The position numbers and the translations under genes are program-made. Below are positions 9,068 through 14,035 of a DNA stretch of 35,697 bases, piece after piece. The notes beneath the pieces were generated by a model, which ran no database searches, was not told the DNA's origin, and worked only from the letters and a program-made list of their open reading frames with translations. The DNA lies in assembly GCA_014695255.1 (NCBI GenBank), contig JACJNX010000097.1:1-35697 (forward strand). The letters are read 5' to 3'. Position 1 is the first letter of the stretch; each line of letters starts with the position of its first letter. Source of the DNA: Cyanobacteria bacterium FACHB-63. GTDB taxonomy: Bacteria > Cyanobacteriota > Cyanobacteriia > Leptolyngbyales > Leptolyngbyaceae.

Positions 9068-10146
9068 AGTGATTTTCCTGAGATCAACTTAGTGGTTTAT
9101 GGAACAAAGATCTGTTCATTCTGAGAGAGACAAACAGGGTCGGGAGAGATGCGCCGTGGCGGTCATTCCGTCGCTTCGGCAGTCATATCGGTAGGGAATG
9201 AAGATGTAGCGGATACCGTTGAGATGGGCACATTTTTTGTCGTTGGCCACAACGGTAAATCAAGGAGCTTTGGCGATCTTGACGTGAGCAAGCATCGTGT
9301 CTTTAGCGTTTATCAGACAACTACACTTGATAGTTTTTGTGTTTGCTTGTGTGCTTAGGCAGATTGTCGTGTTCCTAGGTATTTGGTAAACCATTCAGCA
9401 ATTGTCGTTGTATACACAAGATCCCTGATCAACCAGGACGCAGCAGGGAGGAAAAAAGGACAATACTTCTTCTTGAGTCCTCCCGTTGCGATCTCTTTCC
9501 GCTTAGGAAAGGTCTGAGAAGTATCTGCTCACTATCACGTTGAGAGTTATTAGCGCAACAAGAGAACCCCGGCAACCCCGCAGGGAGAAGCCCTCTCGTC
9601 TTCTATGAAATTAGGCATCGCGCCCATTGCACAACGCTTTCAACTTGTCAGAAAGCACTTCCCAGACATAACTGGATGCTTCAGCTTATGACAGGTGCAC
9701 TTTGCTCAATCCCGTCACACTCAACAACACTTCAAGGTCTTGAAATGACTCGACAAATGCAACAAACACTGCTTCAAAGTAATAACTTCTAGCGGTTCGC
9801 TACTGCTGAGGGTCTTTGTACTCAGTTATAGTAGGGAGAGAATATTAATTGTTTTGTATCAGATATGACTAAGAAGAAAAAAATCTCGAAACTTTGTATA
9901 AGTTAATGAACTAGAAACACAATGTAGCCAAGAATGCTAAGAGAATCTTTAGCTAAAACGCTTGGTGTCAAAAATACTGTATGTCAAAGCAGATGTTCTA
10001 GATAAACAATAGAAATCGCTATGTTAGCAACGAGTAATTGTTATTGGATTGCTCAAAGCATTCATTTGATTAGTTTTCAAGATAAAAGTGAATTGCCGAA
10101 ATTCCCCACGATTGCGGCACTGAGGTGCAGTTAGAGCCTATTGCGT
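9068..10146. other. Long gap with no confident gene
   Basis: An open frame of 69 residues exists at 9149-9358 on the plus strand, with an almost open frame antisense to it; neither is convincing. Bases 9420-9605 hold several short stems (TCCCTG/CAGGGA, GGAGG/CCTCC with GGAC/GTCC, CTTTCC/GGAAAG) that might be a structured RNA. On the minus strand 9611-9805 is open except for one stop and reads protein-like (SYVWEVLSDKLKALCNGRDA), possibly a decayed gene end. The stretch 9830-10130 is AT-rich with nothing recognisable. Confidence 0.5.
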
Positions 10147-10537
10147 CTACGAGGCTTTAGAGTCGCCGACTTCTGCTCTATTGCGGCCGGTAAAACTGGC
10201 AACTTGAATCGATGCCTTGCCACTGTCTTGACGGGTTGCAGCGATCGCATCTTTGCAAAACCGTCTATGAACCTCGTTAAGATTCCCGCCATCGATAAAT
10301 ACTGCGTATCAAGTTGCACTTGCGTCTGGGGGATCTCCACAGGTTTCCTTTGCGGTTTCATCAGAACTGGAGCCAGAGCTAGAACCACTGGTTTGAGTTG
10401 TAGAGGTAGGTGAAGGTGAGGCTACTGAGGCAGTTGGAAGAAATGTTTCCATTTTTATGGACTACCAGCGCTGCAATCCCCCAAACACCCGCACACACAA
10501 CTCCCAAGCCAGTCAGGACGATCACACCGATTTTCAT
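10147..10537 (-). pseudogene. Decayed secreted/membrane-anchored protein gene
   Basis: From ATG 10537 the frame gives a membrane anchor (MKIGVIVLTGLGVVCAGVWG...). It then loses phase at an AAAAA run near 10450. In the next frame it continues with a Ser/Thr/Pro-rich linker (ASPSPTSTTQTSGSSSGSSS) and a conserved-looking domain, CGDPPDASAT, a TGA where Trp would fit, then YAVFIDGGNLNEVHRRFCKD and IQVASFTGRNRAEV. It ends abruptly at TAG 10147. One frameshift, one nonsense codon and a lost C-terminus mark a pseudogene. The domain resembles small secreted cyanobacterial proteins with a C-terminal SPOR-like strand pattern; the family is not certain. Confidence 0.7.
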
Positions 10538-10590
10538 GAACCAAACCGCAATTCCAGTACCCTCAAATAGTGGCGGTTTAAGGTTGATGT

Positions 10591-10633
10591 GATCGTGAAG
10601 TGACCATAAAACTACGTGAAATTTCGGTGTTAG
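10591..10633. repeat. 43-bp direct repeat, copy 1 (flanks the J-domain/HNH pair)
   Basis: Begins GATCGTGAAGTGACC and ends TTTCGGTGTTAG. It matches 12525-12567 at 37 of 43 positions in the same orientation. Its core, TGAAATTTC, becomes a perfect palindrome TGAAATTTCA in the other copy. Confidence 0.85.
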
Positions 10634-10730
10634 TCCGTATCGATTTATTTTCGATGGAAGAGCACTCCAAGTCCTGGCTCTTTCAGGGTTCTAACCAATG
10701 CCTTCAAATAATTTGCAAATCTAGCTTGAC

Positions 10731-11774
10731 TTAGTTCTGTGTTAAGTGAGGGCGGCTTTCAAAATCTCGCTGCAACTTTTCAAGGCGATTGATTAAAGTG
10801 TGCAAATGGTCAGACATCTTCTTATTTTCAAAACGCCAAGATTCTACACTGGTCAAGTATTCAGCAAAATGTTTTGGTTCACAGCTATCACTTCCATGCC
10901 AATTATGAAAACCACAGTGCAGATCTTTGTGCATCACTAATAAATTGTCGTGAAATGCAGCTAAATCCGGTCGTGTCGCCTTGTCAAATAGGTGATGCGC
11001 GTGTAAATCAAAAGGATTCGCTGGAGTTTGCTTTATCAAGCTTACCTGGCATTTACGATTGGCAGCGGCTTTCACTTGATCCATTGCTCTTCTCACACGA
11101 GCATCAAACGAATCCAGGTATTTTCTCTGCTGGTTAACGGCATCCTCAACAATTTCATTAACGGCCTCGGTCCAAGCTCTACGAGATTTTTGCCCCAAGT
11201 TCTCAGACATATTCTGTGCAATACGCGCCAACCCCCGCTGGCTCCAATACTCAACATCCTCTACTCGGTCAAAGTGGACTCCTGGCTCCATCGGCTCTCG
11301 TCCTTTCAAGCTGTAATTATTCTGTTCTCGCTTTGCTGCTGCGTTTAATCCCTTTCCGTTCGTGTCTAGAATGCGGATGACACGAGGACGATCGATAAAG
11401 ACTAGATCGCCCTTAACAATCACTCTACTTAGATCCTGAAACTCCTGAATCACCCGACGACGAACCAGCATTTGGCGAGTCCGTTTACGACGCTGCGTGA
11501 ATCGCTCTACTACTGCATCAATAAAGCTGGCGAAGAAGCCTGACGTATCTGTTTCTTCCAAGTATTTGGCAATTGCCATTGCCCCTTCTTCATAGAAGCG
11601 GCGAGTGCCAATGTTCTTGCTGAGCCACTCAAAATGCTCGCCCCCAGTTAAGTCCCATTCGTCATCCTTACGGTGATCAAAAGCGGCGCAGACGTTGTAC
11701 AGCCTTGCTTTTTTAATGCCAAGAATTTGAGCAGTCTCATCGTCAGACAGCAGATCGTATTTACGGGAGTTCAT
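10731..11774 (-). CDS. HNH endonuclease domain protein
   Basis: 347 residues from ATG 11774. The N-terminal part (residues 1-75, SDDETAQILGIKKARLYNV... GTRRFYEEGAMAIAKYL) looks like a winged or phage-antirepressor-type DNA-binding region, by resemblance only. The middle is basic and helical (QRRKRTRQMLVRRRVIQ). Residues 242-293 carry an HNH nuclease core: Cys242, DLHAHHLFD (His258/260/261), FHDNLLV (Asn277) and MHKDLHCGFHNWHG (His286/His290). A degraded zinc-binding Cys pair is possible with Cys287 and Cys298. A DNA-cutting metal nuclease is expected. The gene starts 31 bases after the J-domain gene, so the two form an operon, and the pair is flanked by direct repeats. The substrate is unknown. 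Confidence 0.75.
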   Translation of the reverse strand: MNSRKYDLLSDDETAQILGIKKARLYNVCAAFDHRKDDEWDLTGGEHFEWLSKNIGTRRFYEEGAMAIAKYLEETDTSGFFASFIDAVVERFTQRRKRTRQMLVRRRVIQEFQDLSRVIVKGDLVFIDRPRVIRILDTNGKGLNAAAKREQNNYSLKGREPMEPGVHFDRVEDVEYWSQRGLARIAQNMSENLGQKSRRAWTEAVNEIVEDAVNQQRKYLDSFDARVRRAMDQVKAAANRKCQVSLIKQTPANPFDLHAHHLFDKATRPDLAAFHDNLLVMHKDLHCGFHNWHGSDSCEPKHFAEYLTSVESWRFENKKMSDHLHTLINRLEKLQRDFESRPHLTQN

Positions 11775-11805
11775 GTCGCTTGTGCCTGCGTCAGGTTAAT
11801 TGTCG

Positions 11806-12375
11806 TTAACGAAACGCCAGGAGCGAATCGCGCATTTTTTGTAGCCGTTCAAACACTTCCCGTTGCCCCCCAGCATCCGGGTGATGTTGCTTGGCTAGAC
11901 GACGAAATGCTGCGTTGATGTCCTCTGAAGTTGCACTTTGAGGATCAAGGTTAAATACGTGCCAAGGGCGAAAGTTTTTGAGCACGTCAATCCCGTTAAT
12001 GCAGCTTGGACCTTCTTCATGCTGTTCGTTCTCAGGGACTCCGACCCACTCGCGGTATAGAGCAAGCCAAGAATCTTTTGTACGAAGATTAAGATCTCGA
12101 CCTGCGATCGCTAATTTGAAGGCATCATGTTTCTTCAGTGCTTTGATATCACTGCACTCAAAGGCGGCAGCGACAGCATCCTGTAGCTCTTTTAGGTTGA
12201 GTGCTTTTGGCTTAGGAGTTGCTGTGGCTTTTGGTTTACGAGTTGATGTGTCAGTTTTCTTCTTACGCGGTTTCGGTTGAGATTGAACAAATCCCGCAAA
12301 ATCACTTAATACTTCAGCATCATAACCGTACTTATTTACAAGCTCTTGGATTCTAGACTCAATTGCATTAGTCAC
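11806..12375 (-). CDS. Protein with a C-terminal J-domain
   Basis: 189 residues from GTG 12375, which has AGAAGG seven bases upstream. Residues 1-30 are helical, 32-58 are a basic Lys/Pro/Thr-rich linker (KPRKKKTDTSTRKPKATATP), 60-112 a helical domain (LKELQDAVAAAF... SWLALYREWVG) and 136-188 a J-domain (PWHVFNLDPQSATSEDINAA, then RRLAKQHHPDAGG). The HPD tripeptide needed to stimulate Hsp70 ATPase is intact at 165-167. J-domains normally sit at the N-terminus of DnaJ; at the C-terminus they usually recruit DnaK to a special client. There is no Gly/Phe or zinc-finger region. The neighbour downstream is the HNH nuclease, a possible client or partner. Confidence 0.75.
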   Translation of the reverse strand: MTNAIESRIQELVNKYGYDAEVLSDFAGFVQSQPKPRKKKTDTSTRKPKATATPKPKALNLKELQDAVAAAFECSDIKALKKHDAFKLAIAGRDLNLRTKDSWLALYREWVGVPENEQHEEGPSCINGIDVLKNFRPWHVFNLDPQSATSEDINAAFRRLAKQHHPDAGGQREVFERLQKMRDSLLAFR

Positions 12376-12691
12376 TGTCTGACCTTCTGTAACGCAGGGT
12401 TAAAGGCTTTTTAGCGGAAGCTAAAAGCTGAGGGAGATCACTTCATACTGAGATAAGTATGGGCAAGAAAACACATCTTGTTTACAGGATGCGACACTCT
12501 ATCTTGCCGCCCTTACTTGTGCGCGATCGTGAAGTGACCGTAAAATGTCATGAAATTTCAGTGTTAGGCAAGATTAGAACCGTTCAACCCTGCCTCCAGC
12601 ATCGGAATCAATAACGGAGTTATTTCCTCAAAAGAAGATAGAATGAGCCACTGATAATGTAAGTGCATAACCTCGTTACGCAAACAATCTG
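12376..12691. other. Divergent intergenic region
   Basis: It separates the minus-strand J-domain gene from the plus-strand wall hydrolase. It holds an imperfect hairpin GCTTTTTAGC/GCTAAAAGC near 12406-12428, an interrupted GGCAAGA/TCTTGCC pair, and the second 43-bp repeat. No gene is visible. Confidence 0.5.
12525..12567. repeat. 43-bp direct repeat, copy 2
   Basis: Begins GATCGTGAAGTGACC and ends TTTCAGTGTTAG; contains the palindrome TGAAATTTCA. See copy 1 at 10591-10633. It lies 125 bases upstream of the wall-hydrolase start. Confidence 0.85.
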
Positions 12692-14035
12692 ATGGGACGT
12701 ATCTTTATTTCTGCCGGACATGGCAATCGTGTTAATGGTGTCACCGATCCGGGGGCAGTCGTCGCAGGCACAACCGAAGCGAGAGAAATGATTCTAACGC
12801 GCGATCTAGTCGTGACAGAACTACGATCGCGGGGGGTAGAAGTCCTCTCGGTGCCCGATGCGCTGAGTGCAGCTCAAGCGATCGACTGGATTAACGCTCG
12901 TGATCGTCCGGATGATGTGGCGCTTGAAATCCGCGCTGATGCGTTTAGTAATCCAGCCGTGCGAGGAGCAACCGTTTACTACATTGCCAATAACGATCAG
13001 CGTCGTCGCAATGCGGAGCAGCTATTATTGGCGCTGATTCGGCGCGTTCCCCAACTGCCCAGCCGAGGAGCCAGACCCGATACCGATACAGGGCTTGGAA
13101 GCCTGCCATTTACTCGTCAGATCACCTGTGGATCGCTGTTGATGACGGTTGGATTTCTCACCAATCCAGACGATCGCTTTATTATTCAGAATCAGCGGCG
13201 CGATCTGGCAAGTGGGATTGCAGATGGTTTGGTGGCTTGGGCGCGAGGCACTGCTTTACCGCCCGATTCCACGGTATATCCTGAAATTCGCATTAGCATT
13301 AACGGGCAAGTTTACGGCGAGAAGGGAATTTTGGTTAATGGCAATGCCTACATTCCGATCGATTTAACCGATCGTCTAGGGGTCGATTTAACTCAAGATC
13401 CGAACATTCGTCGCTTGAATTATCGTCAAGTCGTTTTTGTGAAAGCCGTAGACCTGCGAAACTATACGATCTCTGTGGGTTGGGATGCTCAAGCGCGAAC
13501 CGTGCTGTTGCGATCGATTCTAAAAATCTGTCCGGGAACGCTCGATCGCATCATGAGCAACGGCAACACCACTTCGGCACAGCTAATTGCATTTCTCCGC
13601 AGCAATAATGATGCCGCACCCACGCAGTATCCTCAGCTTGCAGATCTTTATCGCAGTGAGGCTGAGATCGAAGGGGTCAGTTACGATATTGCCTTCAGTC
13701 AAATGCTGCTCGAAACAAACTACTTGCGATTCGGAGGAGAGATTAAACCCTCGCAAAACAACTTTGCTGGACTGGGAGATGTGGGTGGCGGGCCAGAGGG
13801 CGCAAGCTTTCCGAATGCTCAAATTGGTGTGAGAGCGCATATTCAGCTACTCAAAGCCTATGCCAGTACAGAGCCATTGGTGCAAGAAGTCGTCGCACCT
13901 CGGTTTCGGTTTGTTACACGCGGCATTGCACCTTTGGTGGATCAACTGAGTGGGCGCTGGTCAGCCGATCCCCAATATGGGACAAAGATTACGGCAATTT
14001 TGAGGCGGCTGTATGAAGCGGCACAGATTTTGTAA
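12692..14035 (+). CDS. Cell-wall hydrolase: Amidase_3-like domain plus glucosaminidase domain
   Basis: 447 residues. Residues 1-190 have the Amidase_3 (N-acetylmuramoyl-L-alanine amidase) fold: AGHGN with His10, TTEAREM with Glu29, then ALEIRADAFSNP and LLMTVGFLTNPDD. In active amidases the last two motifs read IHADAF and MEVGFLT, so a zinc-binding His is Arg81 here and the catalytic Glu is Thr152. The amidase half is probably inactive. Residues about 200-285 resemble a copper-amine-oxidase-N-like stalk domain (RISINGQVYGEKGILVNGNA). Residues about 295-440 are a glucosaminidase (GH73/FlgJ-like) domain with GVSYDIAFSQMLLETNYLRF. No signal peptide is visible. It is the only plus-strand gene between 9068 and 17053. 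Confidence 0.85.
   Translation: MGRIFISAGHGNRVNGVTDPGAVVAGTTEAREMILTRDLVVTELRSRGVEVLSVPDALSAAQAIDWINARDRPDDVALEIRADAFSNPAVRGATVYYIANNDQRRRNAEQLLLALIRRVPQLPSRGARPDTDTGLGSLPFTRQITCGSLLMTVGFLTNPDDRFIIQNQRRDLASGIADGLVAWARGTALPPDSTVYPEIRISINGQVYGEKGILVNGNAYIPIDLTDRLGVDLTQDPNIRRLNYRQVVFVKAVDLRNYTISVGWDAQARTVLLRSILKICPGTLDRIMSNGNTTSAQLIAFLRSNNDAAPTQYPQLADLYRSEAEIEGVSYDIAFSQMLLETNYLRFGGEIKPSQNNFAGLGDVGGGPEGASFPNAQIGVRAHIQLLKAYASTEPLVQEVVAPRFRFVTRGIAPLVDQLSGRWSADPQYGTKITAILRRLYEAAQIL

Follow-up and report, generated by a model that had tools for sequence, protein, structure and literature searches.

Toxin-antitoxin-chaperone (TAC) modules use a SecB-like chaperone together with a separate antitoxin. 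We describe here a two-gene locus that resembles them in co-encoding a chaperone-type partner with a presumably toxic enzyme, but that has a J-domain protein (hereafter J) in place of the SecB-like chaperone and no third gene. The second gene encodes a probable HNH nuclease, and the pair was found in a stretch of 35,697 nucleotides from Cyanobacteria bacterium FACHB-63 (assembly GCA_014695255.1, contig JACJNX010000097.1, positions 1 to 35,697 of the forward strand), referred to below, at its full length, as the window. Hsp70 machinery features in other systems that resemble the locus in part. Phage protection by bNACHT25 needs DnaJ and the cooperation of DnaJ with DnaK (PMC12169576); the likeness to our locus is an anti-phage effector, a function only proposed here, that depends on a J protein cooperating with DnaK, although in the available passages of that paper the J protein is the host's own DnaJ and not co-encoded, and the effector is a NACHT protein and not an HNH nuclease. 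Similarly, DnaK restrains Cas1-Cas2 until released, such that an Hsp70 keeps a DNA-acting enzyme off self DNA and phage protein expression reverses this (PMC10359635), but that enzyme is the CRISPR adaptation complex and the abstract mentions no dedicated J gene. Finally, the predicted GAP1-N2 conflict loci carry their own parts of the Hsp70 machine (HSP70, GrpE and DnaJ fusions), although they are centred on a GTPase, occur mostly in actinobacteria and firmicutes and have DnaJ fused to FNIII-repeat proteins, with no HNH partner named in the passages available (PMC7159879).

Nuclease modules made of two genes are already known as a general type. The J-HNH module itself is unnamed, as the original prediction for this DNA had supposed: the libraries and literature searched contained no such system. 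The available passages of PMC3710099 and PMC5490813 do not describe the pair, and we found no open-access paper that does, which is weak evidence of novelty given the poor coverage of subscription papers. The J gene precedes the HNH gene by 31 nt on the minus strand, the spacing first noticed being borne out by the coordinates of the open reading frames (ORFs), and its ORF has a GTG start. The genes and their parts, with lengths in amino acids (aa), are:

11806-12375, minus strand: J-protein gene, 189 aa, first of the pair (ORF; DnaJ match; conserved HPD)
11809-11967, minus strand: J domain, about residues 137-189, with HPD at 165-167 and model helices 150-164 and 172-188 (Pfam, AlphaFold, Foldseek)
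10731-11774, minus strand: gene for the probable HNH nuclease, 347 aa, second of the pair (ORF; family alignments)
10905-11051, minus strand: HNH motif region, residues 242-290, with C242, H260-H261, N277 and H290 invariant (alignment)
11550-11753, minus strand: first winged-helix-like unit of the HNH protein, about residues 8-75 (AlphaFold secondary structure; weak MerR/Bro-N-like fold matches)
11199-11423, minus strand: second winged-helix-like unit of the HNH protein, about residues 118-192 (AlphaFold; taken as a repeat of the first unit)

Genome surveys indicate that the J-HNH pair is a real, conserved two-gene module that is widespread in cyanobacteria and has a fixed J-then-HNH order. 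Of the 58 genomes screened first, among which was that of the window, 20 gave an HNH match, with a J gene directly upstream in 19 of them, genome G002 being the exception. A broad scan of one genome per species (84,980 species) with a single peptide pattern, which reports presence only and does not thereby exclude other lineages, retrieved 51 loci, including those of the named picocyanobacteria Synechococcus WH7803 and RCC307, and all of them cyanobacterial by title except for one metagenome-assembled genome (MAG) titled Bifidobacterium breve. A J ORF lay directly upstream and on the same strand in all 51; two of them (L069 and L115) have an HNH gene truncated at a contig end or close to one, and at least nine come from genomes also present in the first set. 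In a survey of 290 genomes of the class, HNH was found in 64 and J in 63 (E<=1e-15), a patchy distribution that spans 39 of 131 genera. After merging pieces, this survey contained 72 HNH loci, 70 J loci and 67 pairs, with J first and gaps of 3-81 nt by profile ends. The two homologues, whose adjacency had been proposed as a check of the module, are thus adjacent in 67/72 HNH loci and 67/70 J loci. The five unpaired HNH loci are two fragments (G107 and G192), a piece of a gene split over two contig ends (G173), a contig-end piece (G269) and a variant that has its own J-domain ORF upstream (G237); two of the three unpaired J loci lie near contig ends (G030 and G210), and in the third (G126) J is followed by a match to the first 20 HNH codons. 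Five of the loci in which profile searches flagged stops were rechecked (G293, G279, G071, G091 and G181), and their HNH and J ORFs were uninterrupted and near full-length, as were those of four other rechecked loci (G058, G104, G145 and G264); G045, G049 and the copy on contig C375 of G024 are also whole despite flagged stops.

Protein distances of HNH and J are correlated across 60 loci (r 0.93; 0/2000 permutations as high), a value to which shared ancestry contributes. Ratios of dN/dS were 0.05-0.13 where computable, comparisons with L045 being saturated, and the pair is under strong purifying selection. The G237 variant (L264:3360-5085) consists of a 348-aa HNH ORF directly preceded by one of 222 aa, whose product ends in a J domain with HPD; the N-terminal parts of both proteins are unlike those of the main family and, in 386 genomes of the phylum, the other matches listed for its HNH protein are confined to the HNH end. 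This diverged pair therefore indicates that the J plus HNH layout exists in at least two forms. As a separate observation, the contig titled as a B. breve MAG (L077) bears a cyanobacterial-type pair and is possibly mislabelled or misbinned.

The C-terminal J domain with intact HPD proposed for the first gene was confirmed by a match to Pfam DnaJ (PF00226, E 2.5e-6, 28.0 bits versus a cut-off of 27.8). The same model is matched by 22/22 aligned J members (E<=0.01) and, once nine duplicate loci were removed from this and the corresponding HNH count, HPD was present in 64/64 J ORFs scoring above 100 bits. In the AlphaFold model (mean pLDDT 85.0) HPD sits between the two helices listed above, and the top Foldseek matches are solved J domains, with a probability of about 1 and E no better than 0.09. 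By domain and HPD, we thus classify the window protein as a J-domain protein, with a predicted capacity to stimulate the ATPase of DnaK. The J protein of G087 (253 aa, L267:3338-4099) gives two overlapping profile matches, as if its N-terminal part were repeated.

When the window HNH protein was searched on its own, none of the HNH models in Pfam, PHROGs, NCBIfam and PADLOC matched it at the thresholds applied. We assign it to the HNH superfamily because its relatives match HNH families and because the motif residues are invariant: PHROG HNH family 144 was matched in 15/20 relatives and Pfam HNH_2 in 9/20, both at E<=0.1 (best E 5.3e-9 and 6e-4, respectively), and the five residues C242, H260, H261, N277 and H290 are identical in all 20 aligned rows, an alignment from which the HNH ORFs of L046, L062 and L064, being broken or short, were excluded. 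The motif is present in 59/60 full-length HNH ORFs, with L112 off by one pattern position; the family thus carries the HNH superfamily motif, and DNA cleavage is predicted. The AlphaFold model (mean pLDDT 86.5) contains two units of similar helix-helix-strand-strand-helix build, with a long helix after each of them, and a C-terminal strand-strand-helix HNH unit (strands 257-261 and 278-282, helix 283-293). The N-terminal units may be tandem winged-helix-like, putatively DNA-binding, modules, as suggested by weak fold matches to MerR- and Bro-N-like proteins; fold searches with this model gave nothing at E<=0.001, and the HNH profile gave no convincing match to solved structures. The initial description of an HNH protein with a DNA-binding-like N-terminus is extended by a conserved HNH motif and by the winged-helix-like appearance of the N-terminal units in the model.

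The pair had also been described as a movable unit bracketed by direct repeats. The repeats and the features around them are:

12525-12567, plus strand: 43-bp repeat, right copy, whose outer end is the end of the block shared with G001
10591-10633, plus strand: left copy of the 43-bp repeat, lying upstream of the broken copy of a SPOR/TPR-like gene
12491-12559, no strand assigned: 69-bp stretch, 77% shared with the region upstream of PDC-S49 in G002
10692-12567, minus strand: block common to the window and G001, with 95.8% DNA identity and non-homologous surroundings
10162-10537, minus strand: 5' portion of a disrupted SPOR/TPR-like gene that has a paralogue elsewhere in the genome, on contig C32

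Mobility was borne out, since the block of 95.8% identity to the same-genus genome G001 lies in unrelated flanks, versus 80% and 83% identity for the two other genes compared between these genomes, coding for glutamine synthetase and an amidase. Sequence comparison thus shows a recent horizontal transfer of the pair as a block. With G006, which has only a distant pair (27% protein identity), the amidase gene shares 92% identity. Elsewhere, the surroundings of the pair vary by locus, except for the picocyanobacterial loci L092-L100, which share upstream genes, so that the pair is stable in that group. No clean empty site at the window's own position was found among same-genus relatives: the amidase gene was matched in all seven of them, homology upstream of it ends at 12618 (G006), 12637 (G001) or 12686 (G003, G004 and G007) in the five relatives whose stretches were compared, and in G001, G002, G004, G005 and G007 the amidase gene does not lie next to the one for glutamine synthetase. 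We rejected an integrase-driven island with att repeats, because no further sizeable gene, such as an integrase, lies between the repeats and these are only 86% alike. Pfam Phage_integrase was matched in 2/143 sampled ORFs neighbouring pairs. In RCC307 and two Prochlorococcus loci (L082, L085 and L087), ORFs that we take by eye to be integrase-like and excisionase-like lie near the pair, as in mobile islands.

The repeats are identical at 37/43 positions, as had been noted, whereas among 500 flank pairs simulated with a Markov model the highest 43-mer identity was 29/43. However, the bracketing holds only in part: the left repeat lies outside the block shared with G001, which has no left repeat and whose homology stops at the outer end of the right one. 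In the window's own genome, only these two copies are within 3 mismatches of a pattern built from them, and one further, more diverged copy lies on contig C32. Six copies were found, all from one genus: the window and G002 have two each, G001 has one, and the sixth is the diverged one on C32. A pattern from four of them occurs five times in 3/42 family genomes, the other 39 being without it. Wide occurrence of the repeats without the genes, which had been named as evidence against the proposed unit, was thus not seen: each of the five occurrences stands beside cargo or a SPOR/TPR-like gene, and only the diverged C32 copy stands without cargo. Three copies are upstream of a SPOR/TPR-like gene (window, G002 and C32), whose product gives Pfam matches at or slightly under the cut-off, and three are upstream of cargo, either J-HNH (window and G001) or PDC-S49 (G002). 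The left repeat is part of the sequence upstream of the broken SPOR/TPR-like copy, and window positions 10170-10628 are 90.7% identical to C32, where the gene has no stops across the compared part and is accompanied by one repeat and no cargo.

In G002 (L205:4986-7785), a genome of the same genus, diverged repeat copies 2.76 kb apart enclose a 644-aa KAP P-loop NTPase that matches the PADLOC phage-defence candidate PDC-S49 (E 3.9e-246), followed by the SPOR/TPR-like gene. The window is arranged likewise, J-HNH being the cargo and the SPOR/TPR-like copy being broken, and the 69-bp stretch that includes the right-hand repeat is common to both cargoes. PDC-S49 thus occupies an equivalent repeat-bracketed place, although it is a single gene and its protein is unrelated to those of the pair. 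In G005 and G007, relatives of PDC-S49 occur without such repeats, which are therefore no general companion of that gene. In our reading, there is a single place whose cargo can be exchanged and which was probably later copied or moved to the window's site; alternatively, the repeat may be a promoter-type element. A precise presence/absence between the repeats in a close strain, as originally suggested for comparison, was not found, the nearest cases being the different cargo in G002 and the cargo-free, single-repeat copy on C32, which resembles an empty place, yet is more diverged.

In four cases, an intact J gene stands next to an HNH gene that is disrupted or missing. In G020 (L062:10397-12973), HNH is interrupted by an insertion of ca. 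2.6 kb with ORFs that, by eye, we take to be transposase-like; the copy on contig C26 of G024 has a frameshift, or a draft error; G126 has lost HNH almost completely; and the G173 gene is probably a further case, split at contig ends and followed by the start of an ORF that is presumably an IS256-type transposase. Conversely, no broken J gene beside a whole HNH gene was found among the loci examined, and every full-length HNH of the family that we saw was accompanied by a J gene. This asymmetry fits a harmful effector and its keeper, but the events are too few to prove it.

We consider a mobile two-gene module acting against phages or other invading elements to be the most likely single explanation for the pair, although one that we hold with no more than even confidence. 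The HNH protein would be the effector, its tandem winged-helix-like units binding DNA and its C-terminal HNH domain cutting it. J would bind the nuclease via its N-terminal region and recruit the host DnaK via its HPD-bearing J domain, and together J and DnaK, in healthy cells, would keep the nuclease inactive or ready to be triggered. Release of the nuclease and cutting of DNA would follow once the DnaK/DnaJ machinery is loaded or hijacked by a phage or another invader. The binding of J to HNH, the recruitment of DnaK, the nuclease activity, its triggering and the anti-phage outcome are all proposals of this model; what supports it is the fixed pairing, the conserved motifs, the purifying selection, the block transfer and one candidate defence gene in an equivalent place. 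More tentatively, the pair might represent an unnamed class of immune modules in which a nuclease has its own Hsp70 adaptor, J serving as tether and sensor such that phage capture of DnaK fires the nuclease, and which in this genus would be exchangeable cargo at a repeat-bracketed defence slot. Around one in five of the surveyed genomes of the class carries a probable nuclease evolutionarily bound to a private J protein. If the module is immune, the idea of chaperone guarding that the available passages propose for bNACHT25 (PMC12169576) would become a built-in operon design; even if it is not, a nuclease nearly always travelling with its own Hsp70 adaptor would be an unusual form of enzyme control.

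Several results weigh against an immune role or against its details. Using PADLOC 2.0.0, neither window protein gave a match and the alignments of relatives gave only weak ones, the best of them to a type II restriction enzyme in 9/20 HNH relatives (3.5e-6), and NCBIfam gave weak MobB-relaxase matches in 6/20 (3.2e-4). The defence-island enrichment that had been proposed as a check was not seen, with 49 PADLOC families in 143 neighbour ORFs versus 50 in 142 control ORFs (E<=1e-10), in a coarse comparison that counts families and not ORFs. The neighbours were a random sample of 143/234 eligible ORFs from 64 loci, the longest being then dropped, and the controls were 142/176 ORFs from 20 hand-picked regions on large contigs of 13 carrier genomes; named loci contributed neighbours only. 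Among the matches listed, strong ones were seen for neighbours (e.g. AriA, AriAB and SIR2), and the controls also had theirs (e.g. Cas10, Cas6, Csx3 and PDC-S41). PDC-S49 in the equivalent place is one instance. In addition, G002 has a 219-aa ORF (L064:9119-9778) with the HNH half only and no J gene within the surrounding 19.9 kb. Four broken or lost HNH genes versus no broken J has an estimated chance of about 0.18 given the gene lengths, and some of the contigs are drafts. Lastly, the results agree with a J protein that restrains the nuclease as well as with one that activates it.

Among other explanations, the one that survives best, although we think it unlikely, is stabilisation of a toxin-antitoxin type, in which HNH would be toxic to its own cell, J and DnaK would act as a chaperone-type antitoxin and the pair would persist by addiction. 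The small two-gene operon with its control gene first and short gaps would suit such a module, as would the J genes that remain beside broken or lost HNH genes, the lack of any full-length family HNH seen without J, although breakage events are few and the asymmetry of loss is only 4 to 0. Addiction modules, however, are usually abundant on plasmids, and neither protein was found in any plasmid record at E<=1e-5; besides, with 347 aa and two DNA-binding-like units, the nuclease would be a large toxin. Phage records contained no match for the HNH protein either, nor did phage or plasmid records for the diverged HNH of G237. In IMG/VR, 0/138 candidate stretches were confirmed for HNH, and the J query retrieved at least 80 loci that match the J-domain part only (within residues 102-187).

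Slightly less probable still is a host pair for DNA processing or regulation (repair, replication restart or transformation) that has been moved about while keeping an ordinary role, the repeats being promoter-type elements. Strong purifying selection, the lack of defence enrichment among neighbours and the position of the repeats, upstream of the SPOR/TPR-like gene in three copies and of cargo in the other three, would all agree with such a role. Against it, the pair occurs in only 64/290 genomes and 39/131 genera, and the repeat family is found in one genus only and is therefore not a general promoter of the pair. As for a selfish unit of homing type, in which the HNH endonuclease, aided by J, would cut sites not yet invaded and thereby propagate its block, the DNA-binding-like N-terminus of the HNH model and a block that moves between genomes with one sharp end are in its favour, but we find it quite improbable, and rejected a homing insertion here, because break-repair homing uses the same site whereas the flanks of the block in the window (G000) and G001 are non-homologous (in this one genome pair), because HNH was absent from the phage records and IMG/VR candidates searched, and because a homing enzyme has no need of a J protein.

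Apart from the pair, no further sizeable gene lies between the two repeats, and no known RNA element reaches its gathering score in window positions 10100-12800. A short hairpin-like inverted repeat is located upstream of the J gene, at positions 12400-12435 of the window, and is identical in G001.
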